Shown: piece after piece, positions 25,313-40,876 of the stretch
Numbering within the stretch: the first letter of the stretch is position 1
Layout: each line of letters opens with the position of its first letter
The notes under the pieces: generated by a model
The model's database searches: none
Seen by the model: the letters and a program-made list of their open reading frames with translations, nothing else
Told to the model about the DNA's origin: nothing
Translations under genes and position numbers: made by a program
NCBI GenBank assembly: GCA_009773055.1
Contig: WOUW01000001.1
Coordinates: 63,810-127,809 of the forward strand
Origin: Paracoccaceae bacterium
GTDB lineage: Bacteria; Pseudomonadota; Alphaproteobacteria; Rhodobacterales; Rhodobacteraceae
DNA length: 64,000 bases
Reading direction: 5' to 3'

Positions 25313-26188
25313 CTAGGCAAGTGCCTTCTGCACGAAAGCCAGCACTTCGGCCTTGACCGCGCCGGTCGCGAAGGCGTCGCCACCATGACCGGCACCCGGC
25401 ACCAGCTTGTAGTCGACAGCGGCCGTGGGGTCGGCGGCGAGCCAGGCCTCGCGCAGGCGTCTGGCTTGCAGGTCGGCGATCAGCGGATCGGCGTCGCCAT
25501 GCCGGATCAGGATCGGCGGCAGCGGTTCGCGCAACTGGGACAACCGCCCGATCGGCCCCACTGCCCGCGCTGCGGCGCGGTTTTCGCCGACGGCATAGCC
25601 CAGAAGCTGGCTTTCCGCGCTGGCCGCCGCATCCGTCGGCCCCATCTGGGGCGTACGGCCAAGCGTTGCCATGTCCTGATCCATCGTCGAGAAATCCATC
25701 GGACCAAAGAGGCTGACAACGCCACGCGGCCTGAGGCCGACCTCCACCAGGCTGAGGGACGTGGAGACCGCAAGGAACGCTCCGGCCGACTGGCCCAGAA
25801 GCACCATCCGCGACGGATCAAGGCCAAGCTCTGCCCCTTGGCGCTGGAGATGGACGACGGCAGAGAGACAGTCCTCGCCTTGCGCAGGCCAGCGGTCGGT
25901 GACGGACAGGCGGTAGTTCACCCGGACCACGGCGATGCCTGCCTCCAGAAGTTCGGGCCAGATCGCGAGGTCGGACTTGTCGCCAACCCTGAACGCACCG
26001 CCATGCACCATCACGAGGATGGGGGCAGGCCCGGTTCCGCGCGAATAGGTCAGGTCCATGACCTGACGCGGACCCGCGCCATAGGTGATCTCGTTGGCCC
26101 CAGGCGTCCGCCAGCGCCAGAGTGCCACGCCGCCTGCGGCTGCCGCCGCGCCGCCGATCAGAAGGGTTCTGCGGATCAGTCCGGGCAT
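25313..26188 (-). CDS. Alpha/beta hydrolase (HSL/BD-FAE-like esterase), exported or membrane-anchored
   Basis: 291 aa. A hydrophobic N-terminus (RRTLLIGGAAAAAGGVALW, Tat-like twin Arg or signal anchor) precedes a hydrolase fold. Oxyanion motif VHGGAF at 61-66, nucleophile elbow GQSAGA with Ser134, an acid in RHGDADPL (Asp232 or Asp234) and His268 in PGAGHGG. The pattern fits carboxylesterases of the hormone-sensitive-lipase group and kynurenine-formamidase-like proteins; substrate unknown. Its start overlaps the end of the truncated flavodoxin-fold gene by 13 bases, so the two were probably an operon. Convergent with the proline-rich protein gene. Confidence 0.85.
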   Translation of the reverse strand: MPGLIRRTLLIGGAAAAAGGVALWRWRTPGANEITYGAGPRQVMDLTYSRGTGPAPILVMVHGGAFRVGDKSDLAIWPELLEAGIAVVRVNYRLSVTDRWPAQGEDCLSAVVHLQRQGAELGLDPSRMVLLGQSAGAFLAVSTSLSLVEVGLRPRGVVSLFGPMDFSTMDQDMATLGRTPQMGPTDAAASAESQLLGYAVGENRAAARAVGPIGRLSQLREPLPPILIRHGDADPLIADLQARRLREAWLAADPTAAVDYKLVPGAGHGGDAFATGAVKAEVLAFVQKALA

Positions 26189-26710
26189 GTCAGTCTCCGT
26201 GCGATGCGGGTGATGTCAGTGGCAAGCCGGGATTCGAGGCTTGCAAGGTGGGGCTTGGCCACCGCTTCGGCGCGGTAAAGCGCGCGCCACGTCAGGCGGG
26301 CCCGCGGCGCGCAGGGTTTCAGGATGGCAAGGCGCAGGATGCGCCGGACGGGGCGGCGCAGGACCAGCCAGTCGATCCAGCCGGGCGCGCCCATGGTGGT
26401 GACGGCCAGGACCTCTTGCAGACCGTTCAGGCGCGGCAGCATCGGACCGAAGCCGGGCGAGTGGTCGAAGGCCGTGCCCGGAGCCCAGACCCGGTCGAAC
26501 CAGCCCTTCAGGATGGCCGGGAAGCCGAACCACCAGGTCGGGAACACGAGGATCAGGACCTGGGCTGCCGCAAGCTCTGCCTTCTCGGCGTCAAGCGTTG
26601 CGGGGGCAGTGGCGTAGTAGCCTTGCCTTTCCTCGGGCGTGAGGCGGGGGTCGAAATGTTCGGCATAAAGGTTGCGGCGGGTGACCTGCCAGCCTTGCAC
26701 GCGGGCACAG
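26176..26710 (-). pseudogene. 5'-truncated flavodoxin-fold NAD(P)H quinone reductase-like gene
   Basis: About 178 codons of a KefF/MdaB/NQO1-like flavodoxin. The preserved part has LYAEHFDPRLTPEER, LILVFPTWWFGFPAILKGWFDRV (the FMN-phosphate/ring segment) and the VTTMGAP turn. The family's first 25-30 residues, with the initial beta strand and FMN-phosphate loop, are missing: at 26711 the sequence switches abruptly into an inverted copy of a piece of the neighbouring demethylase gene. An open frame continues through that copy to about 26805 but the encoded residues do not resemble a flavodoxin start. A functional protein is therefore unlikely unless the junction is an assembly error. Confidence 0.75.
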
Positions 26711-26810
26711 GCCTCGACTGGCTGCGCGCCGCCCCGGGCTTTGCCTTCGGCGATGGCACGATCACCCGCCCGGACGGTGTTACCGTCCCGCTGGACCCCG
26801 CCCAACCGCT
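26711..26810. repeat. 100-bp perfect inverted repeat, left arm
   Basis: Exact reverse complement of 27130-27229 over all 100 bases, with 319 bp between the arms. Identity stops sharply at both ends. This arm is the misplaced copy: it interrupts both neighbouring genes, whereas the right arm fits the demethylase reading frame. Confidence 0.95.
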
Positions 26811-27443
26811 ATAGACGTGATCCGTGGGCTGCGGGCGCCTTTCCCCCTCGCGCCGGGGCTGGTGCAGGGAAAAATCGTCGTAAGTCAGGTAGTTCATCCG
26901 CCAAAGCGGCTGTTCGGGCCGGATTGCGTCGAACAGGCGGGCGACTCGCTTGGCGACATCGGCGTCGTAGACCGGGACAGGCTGATGGATGCCGGTCAGC
27001 GGGCGGCCGATCTTTTGCGTCAGGGTCCAGCTTGCGGGAAAGCAAAGCATGCCAGCGGTCAGCACATATTCCTCGTCCTGTCGCTGCATCAGGCACAGGT
27101 CTTCCTGCACCAGGCGGCCCAGGGTGAGGAGCGGTTGGGCGGGGTCCAGCGGGACGGTAACACCGTCCGGGCGGGTGATCGTGCCATCGCCGAAGGCAAA
27201 GCCCGGGGCGGCGCGCAGCCAGTCGAGGCGGGCCTCCGGCAGAAAGGCGTGCACCACGTCCGGCTGGTGTGCGATCAGGCGGTCGCGCAGGTCCATCTGG
27301 GGGCCATAGGCATTGTCCACGCGAAGCCAGTCGCGGCCTTCGACGGGCAGGATGCCCGGCAGACGCCGGGTGCGCGGATCGACCCAGGCGAGATGCGGCA
27401 GGCGGTCCTGCAGAATGGGCGTGTCTTGCATCGAATGTGCCAT
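26811..27443 (-). pseudogene. 3'-truncated haem-dependent oxidative N-demethylase (DUF3445) gene
   Basis: About 211 codons of a DUF3445/HODM protein. Family segments are clear: PHLAWVDPRTRRLPGILP, then VQEDLCLMQRQ, LTAGMLCFPASW, KIGRPLTGIHQPVPVYD and ALWRMNYL-like PLWRMNYL, HQPRREGERRP. The family normally continues with a YVRSERQ segment and about 60 more residues; here the native frame ends at the tyrosine codon at 26811-26813 and runs into the inverted copy, stopping only at 26553 with unrelated sequence. HODM enzymes use haem, an iron-sulfur cluster and a flavin to demethylate amines such as dimethylamine. Start uncertain (27443 or 27431). Divergent from dddP. Confidence 0.8.
27130..27229. 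repeat. 100-bp perfect inverted repeat, right (native) arm
   Basis: Lies within the demethylase frame and encodes a peptide including FGDGTITRPDGVTVPLD that fits the DUF3445 family at that point, so this is the original copy from which 26711-26810 was derived. Confidence 0.95.
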
Positions 27444-27564
27444 GCGCCGCTTGAACCATGGGTGCCGGGCCGCTGCAACCAACACGTTTGCGACCAAAGG
27501 CGTCGCGGATGGGGAAGCGGCGGTTCGCCGCCGGGGCAGTCTGGTCGGGCAAGGGGAGGGTTCC

Positions 27565-28899
27565 ATGACCTATCAACGCGACCGGCGGAAGATCGACCCG
27601 ACGCGGGGGCCACTGCTTGGCGACGGCAGCCCGAATGACAATGACCGGGTGGAGATCGGGCCCACGCAGCTGGCGTTCGCGGAATGGGCGGCGGCGGGGC
27701 TGGCCCTGCCGAACTTGCCCAGAATGCGCGAGGATCGGTGGCGGAAGCTGACAGCGGGGCTGGTCGCGCGGGACTATGGCGGCCTTCTGATGTTCGATCC
27801 CCTGAACATCCGCTATGCGACCGACACCACGAACATGCAGCTTTGGAACACGCACAACCCGTTCCGAGCATGTCTCCTGTGTGCCGACGGGCACATGGTG
27901 ATGTGGGAATACAAGAACTCGCCGTTCCTCGTGACCTTCAACCCGCTGGTGAAGGAGCTGCGGTCGGGGGCGACGTTCTTTTACAACTCGACCGGCGACC
28001 GGGGGCCGCAGGCGGCACAAGGCTTTGCGGCCCAGGTCGACGAGGTGATGCGGGAACATGCAGTTGGCAACCGGCGACTGGCGGTGGACAAGATCATGGT
28101 CCACGGGCTGCGGGCGCTGGAGGCGGCAGGATTTACGGTCGAGGAAGGCGAGGAGGTGACCGAGCGGGTCCGCGCGGTGAAGACACCGGACGAGATTCTG
28201 GCAATGCGCTGTGCGCATCACGCCTGCGAGGCGGGTATCGCGGAGATGGAGGCCTTCACGCGTGAATGTGTGCCGAAGGGTGGCGTTTCTGAGGATGCGA
28301 TCTGGGCAGAGTTGCACGCCGCCAACATCCGGCGCGGCGGCGAGTGGATCGAGACACGGCTTCTGGCCAGTGGCCCCCGGACGAACCCGTGGTTCCAGGA
28401 GTGCGGCCCGCGGCTGGTGCAGCCGGACGAAATCGTTGCCTTTGATACTGACCTGATTGGCGCTTACGGCTTCTGCATCGATATCAGCCGGACCTGGTGG
28501 GTCGGCGACACGCGGCCCTCGAACGCGATGGTTTCGGCCTTTCACCACGCGCTCGACCACATCGCTGACCACAAGGCGCGGCTTCACCCAGGGGTGACCA
28601 TCGAGGAACTGGTGATGCAGGGCCATCAGCTTGCGCCGGAATACTGGGCGCAGAAATACTCCTGCAAGATGCATGGCGTCGGGCTTTGCGACGAATGGCC
28701 CTATGTCCACTACCCCGACGGCTGGATGCCGGGGGCCTTCGACGCCGCCCTTGAGCCGGGGATGGTTCTTTGCGTCGAGGCGCTGGTTTCGCCCGAGGGT
28801 GGCAGCTTCTCGATCAAGCTGGAAGATCAGGTGCTGATCACCGATACCGGCTGCGAGACGCTGACGCGCTATCCGTTTGATGAGCGGTTGATGGGCTAG
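27565..28899 (+). CDS. dddP: DMSP lyase DddP (M24 metallopeptidase-fold)
   Basis: 444 aa, the same length as characterised roseobacter DddP. Close match in signatures: RKIDPTRGPLLGD near the N-terminus, GLLMFDPLNIRYATDTTNMQ (73-92), NTHNPFRA, GGEWIETRLLASGPRTNPWF (258-277). The metal ligands fall one residue before those of Ruegeria lacuscaerulensis DddP: Asp294, Asp296, Asp306, His370, Glu405 and Glu420. It cleaves dimethylsulfoniopropionate to dimethyl sulfide and acrylate. M24 creatinase or Xaa-Pro peptidase is the alternative, but the segments above are DddP-specific. GGGGAGGG precedes the ATG. No acrylate-handling genes lie next to it; the divergent neighbour is the truncated demethylase gene. 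Confidence 0.88.
   Translation: MTYQRDRRKIDPTRGPLLGDGSPNDNDRVEIGPTQLAFAEWAAAGLALPNLPRMREDRWRKLTAGLVARDYGGLLMFDPLNIRYATDTTNMQLWNTHNPFRACLLCADGHMVMWEYKNSPFLVTFNPLVKELRSGATFFYNSTGDRGPQAAQGFAAQVDEVMREHAVGNRRLAVDKIMVHGLRALEAAGFTVEEGEEVTERVRAVKTPDEILAMRCAHHACEAGIAEMEAFTRECVPKGGVSEDAIWAELHAANIRRGGEWIETRLLASGPRTNPWFQECGPRLVQPDEIVAFDTDLIGAYGFCIDISRTWWVGDTRPSNAMVSAFHHALDHIADHKARLHPGVTIEELVMQGHQLAPEYWAQKYSCKMHGVGLCDEWPYVHYPDGWMPGAFDAALEPGMVLCVEALVSPEGGSFSIKLEDQVLITDTGCETLTRYPFDERLMG

Positions 28900-38203: not shown

Positions 38204-40876
<2,673 letters not shown>

Follow-up and report, generated by a model that had tools for sequence, protein, structure and literature searches.

Within the 64-kb window, by which we mean the whole stretch of DNA that was analysed, the upstream part of a HODM (DUF3445) gene and a flavodoxin-fold gene follow one another on the reverse strand, with an inverted copy of part of the former lying between them. 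The HODM frame (26811–27566; profile match to PF11927, 118.5 bits; start codon provisional) lacks 44 C-terminal codons, and the gene to the left of the repeat (26176–26718; profile match to Flavodoxin_2, PF02525, 91.4 bits) is written without its first 23 codons. The window was placed in contig 30 (138,792 bp) of a draft genome of 2,261,068 bases in 87 contigs, with a completeness of 59.14% and a contamination of 0.3%.

The repeat consists of a left arm at 26711–26810, which is the exact reverse complement of a right arm at 27130–27229 (100 of 100 bases), and the next base outside the repeat is a mismatch on either side. The right arm is native HODM coding sequence on the reverse strand (LDWLRAAPGF...DPAQPL), in frame and aligning to relatives, and it is followed by a spacer of 319 bp (26811–27129, same strand) of equally native HODM sequence up to ...PTDHVY. 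The left arm, an inverted copy of the right arm and hence on the forward strand, occupies the place of approximately 200 bp comprising the end of HODM and the beginning of the flavodoxin gene; it is made up of 92 non-native nucleotides and a further 8 nt (GTCGAGGC) compatible with the right-arm end as well as with the V-E-A codons of the flavodoxin gene. These facts bear out the core of a preliminary description of this DNA, namely that there is a perfect 100-bp inverted repeat here, that its right copy fits the HODM reading frame, and that both genes are broken as given because a folded-back copy replaces the tail of one and the start of the other. The short match of 6–8 nt at the junction of the left arm with the flavodoxin gene (26711–26718, reverse strand; GTCGAG(GC)) is newly found.

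This is the sole exact inverted repeat of at least 24 nt within the window. The wider sample of the same assembly comprised 36 sequences, contig 30 as a whole and 35 others taken either whole or to a length of 20 kb from their start; three of these 36 consist of N throughout, and in the readable total of 646,866 non-N bases the second-longest exact inverted repeat within one sequence measures 23 nt. Likewise, none longer than 20 nt was found in three 60-kb stretches of relatives. The repeat folds as single-stranded DNA with a z-score of -19, as expected of a perfect 100-bp stem. The draft yielded no other exact repeats near 100 bp in length, such as would serve as a k-mer or read-length signature; the direct repeats listed reach 83 nt at most. 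By default IDBA-UD stops at k = 100, a value from which we draw no inference. Two identical 83-nt direct copies lie outside the window on contig 30 (7202–7284 and 7563–7645) and represent a putative repeated tRNA gene.

The locus in related genomes

We searched 31 other genomes of the genus for the same genes; Tabrizicola, Rhodobacter and Rhodobacterales are among the closest related records. An HODM match with an E-value of at most 4.2e-84 is present in 24 of the 31 genomes and a flavodoxin match of at least 65% identity in 12, with HODM preceding it in 11 of these 12. Of 19 genus loci compared, nine have the order HODM-flavodoxin-esterase, the arrangement that the preliminary description had proposed looking for in its first two members, and in the other ten the esterase gene comes after HODM and a flavodoxin gene is lacking. 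The repeat was not seen in the relatives examined, whose genes are intact, as would be the case for a local assembly error. No exact inverted repeat longer than 16 nt occurs in the 19 genus loci, so that the finding named in the preliminary description as counting against it, relatives carrying the same repeat, did not materialise; the maximum over 80 named related loci is one of 37 nt, distant from HODM and located where a contig ends.

The extent of the loss can be measured between two conserved landmarks, the H of HVFIRC/HVYIRC in HODM and the GW of the flavodoxin. These are 233 bp apart in all six relatives measured, vs 125 bp in the window, and after subtraction of the retained parts (9 and 24 nt) the sequence missing at the site of the left arm amounts to 200 bp. 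This corresponds to 44 HODM codons and 23 flavodoxin codons; in relatives the end of one gene and the start of the other share a few bases. The preliminary description was thus right that the demethylase had lost its C-terminus and the flavodoxin its N-terminus, but by this spacing count its estimates of about 60 and 25–30 residues, respectively, were too high.

The comparison also brought to light a feature beside the repeat that is absent from that description. Ten residues (PAADELYAAV in the nearest relative) are absent from the window's HODM just before LDWL, a 30-bp loss at 27227–27228 on the reverse strand that lies no more than 2 bp from the outer end of the right arm. Exactly ten extra residues are found at this site in 46 of the 80 related loci, 2–17 in 30 and a negative count in four; in the 34 best-ranked loci (L039–L072) the number is ten in every case. 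Since the 30-bp loss and the end of the repeat coincide within 2 bp, we regard them as one disturbance; by codon alignment, two of the 100 matching bases lie past the 30-bp junction, where they could match by chance. Relative to its relatives, the locus is therefore composed of three native pieces: the 5' part of HODM, the segment 26811–27227, and the flavodoxin gene from its VEA codons onward. The middle piece is bounded on one side by the 30-bp loss and on the other by the loss of approximately 200 bp, and its far end reappears in inverted form at its near end.

Deletions elsewhere in the same draft

Four core genes of the same draft, encoding aconitase, RuvB, FlgK and cytochrome b, carry deletions that the relatives compared do not share, none of them marked by N. 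The aconitase gene acnA (38204–40873, forward strand) lacks 75 bp in frame at approximately 38345 of the window, corresponding to 25 residues that are present in each of the 27 hits within the genus that cover the query from end to end, the genome from which the query was taken included. The two AcnA matches of the window's own genome are two pieces of one gene. The remaining four of the 31 other genomes comprise one with no match, one cut by contig ends and two with broken matches (G014 and G025: loss of a stretch together with a stop, and a shift of frame), which are at residues other than those affected in the window. The latter two fit common draft errors, yet they also mean that a broken aconitase call is not unique to the window's genome. 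The 75-bp deletion is likely an assembly fault. The gene additionally carries insertions of its own, of 15 and 5 residues.

The other three lesions are frameshifts: 35 bp lost from RuvB (approximately 18621 of L155 of the assembly; a stretch aligned at the DNA level to, and its loss seen against, G022 alone), 59 bp from FlgK (approximately 759 of L149), and 121 bp from cytochrome b (approximately 16825 of L124), the last of these appearing identically against all three relatives compared (G022, G020 and G008). The assembly contains no second PF00033 match besides the broken cytochrome b. Second copies of the broken core genes could lie in the 41% of the genome that the draft lacks. By visual comparison with relatives, the junctions of these other lesions show matches of approximately 0–2 nt. 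In the sampled contigs there are eight runs of N with lengths of 5–101, some of which perhaps represent masking; by comparison with relatives, one run stands against about 25 bp more in G008, while another does not fit underestimated gaps.

Parts of the draft were then compared with G022 and G020, both isolates by inference. In a DNA screen spanning at most approximately 105–112 kb per genome, four deletions relative to both others were found in the window's genome (21, 30, 59 and 75 bp) and none in either G022 or G020, so unmarked faults occur elsewhere in this assembly but not in the screened DNA of the two isolates, again as for a local assembly error. The 21-bp loss, at approximately 21042 of the window, is in a fast-changing gene and was not counted as an error. 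A protein screen that covered contig 30 plus 20 kb from the start of each of three other contigs (90 genes, 30,818 residues) gave a weaker contrast, with six gaps of at least 5 residues confined to the window's genome vs three in G020 (5 residues each) and none in G022; insertions in one genome only numbered five, four and one, respectively. In a smaller protein screen (52 genes, up to five genomes) there were four deletions confined to the window's genome vs none in the others, and four such insertions vs five in the others together. Split or stop-bearing matches made up 14 rows for the window's genome and seven for G020, figures that include antisense frames and paralogues; of the 14, two (RuvB and FlgK) were traced to the DNA level and only those two are counted here.

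Origin of the repeat

These observations argue that the 100-bp repeat is very probably an error of the draft sequence and not a property of the organism, which most likely has HODM, flavodoxin and esterase genes that are whole and consecutive. The repeat is best read as a local error, of assembly or of amplification, that belongs to a pattern running through the draft. Because unmarked deletions in core genes occur in the same draft, an error is clearly favoured over an event in the genome. It is implausible that aconitase, RuvB and cytochrome b should all be broken in one free-living bacterium, whereas a draft containing errors is easily believed. The preliminary description had left the choice between a genome event and a chimera or assembly product undecided; its second alternative is the one that gains here and its first is much less likely, while its view that perfect identity implies a very recent event follows only if that event happened in a cell. 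Local assembly errors lacking read support are known in metagenome assemblies, and passages of one account suspect them of being 'particularly prominent in IDBA-UD' (PMC7111523). The present case resembles those described there in its short, gene-breaking consensus, its unmarked joins, its gapped draft and its intact relatives; it differs in having an inverted copy, which does not feature in those passages, and that class is defined by zero read support, whereas the locus here is known from consensus sequence (PMC7111523).

The error may have arisen either by joins made during local assembly without read support or by a polymerase-made chimera that became the consensus, and the junctions point in different directions. 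The match of 6–8 nt at the left junction, which would be expected of a blind join only about once in 4,000 for 6 nt and is typical of template switching, would favour a polymerase as the maker of that junction, while the near absence of matches at the other lesions would favour the assembler. The left match speaks against blind, zero-gap joining of contigs as the sole cause as far as that join is concerned. Other points also sit uneasily with a draft error: there is only one inverted copy in 646,866 bases, so that recurrence is shown for the deletions but not for the inversion, and the size changes of 30, 75 and net 108 bp are all multiples of three, a coincidence expected once in 27. A chimera that arose in vitro, for example during whole-genome amplification, and passed into the assembled consensus is the specific form of draft error (and part of its overall likelihood) that this match would suit, and we consider it possible but doubtful. 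Amplification yields palindromic chimeras in many reads, in which nearby sequence is copied back on itself as here, according to the part of the account drawn on (PMC6218980), and a completeness of 59% with 0.3% contamination would also suit a single-cell genome. However, such an origin would need two switches merely 100 nt apart, an odd circumstance that sets the locus apart from the chimeras in that part of the account (PMC6218980); the other lesions have little or no match at their junctions; and one fold-back per 646,866 bases is few, although this feature is defined on reads and our count comes from the assembly.

A true template-switch mutation in the cell is the principal rival to a draft error, and we judge it unlikely. 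A polymerase on the HODM-sense strand would stop at DHVY (26811), copy 100 nt back from the opposite strand or its own, and resume on its first template in the flavodoxin gene, where GTCGAG(GC) would pair, with approximately 200 bp skipped. The geometry of the locus fits a four-point switch with one inverted 100-nt copy, the return point falls at the 6–8 nt match, and the arms are still identical, as they would be after a recent event. As far as the relevant passages on short-range switches go, a nearby inverted templated copy, the loss of the bypassed stretch and a short return match are shared features, and inverted templated copies in hominids reach 128 nt with a median of 12 (PMC7954356), which places a 100-nt copy near the upper limit of reported lengths. 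The additional 30-bp loss at the same point, also unlike the switches described there (PMC7954356), is not accounted for, and the locus thus goes beyond a single event; nor does a switch account for the lesions in aconitase, RuvB, FlgK and the draft's only cytochrome b, which point to artefact in a way that those cases do not (PMC7954356), and the arrangement is absent from the relatives examined. Slightly less probable still is the fuller version, in which a recent switch in a Tabrizicola population removed two gene ends in a lineage that was also losing short pieces of other genes; if true, this would be a clean and long example of a template switch hitting two genes of a bacterium. As for a functional inverted repeat between the genes (an invertible switch, an attenuator hairpin or the end of a mobile element), the very strong stem is what one would look for, but the two arms carry coding sequence from a single gene, conserved parts of two genes are lost to one of them, and no like repeat occurs in the 19 genus loci, making such a role scarcely credible. 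Given that a draft error is the preferred reading, the truncated-looking HODM, flavodoxin, aconitase, RuvB, FlgK and cytochrome b genes of this draft should not be taken as biology until they have been checked against reads.

Genes flanking the repeat

The position between HODM and the esterase is a spot of gain and loss of the flavodoxin-fold gene within the genus (loci L005–L023), with conserved flanks. On the other side, a DMSP lyase gene, dddP (27565–28899, forward strand; NF043017, 838 bits vs a cut-off of 600), stands head to head with the HODM gene. A DddP match is found on the same side of HODM in all 19 genus loci, at a distance of approximately 1 kb in two of them (L008 and L020).
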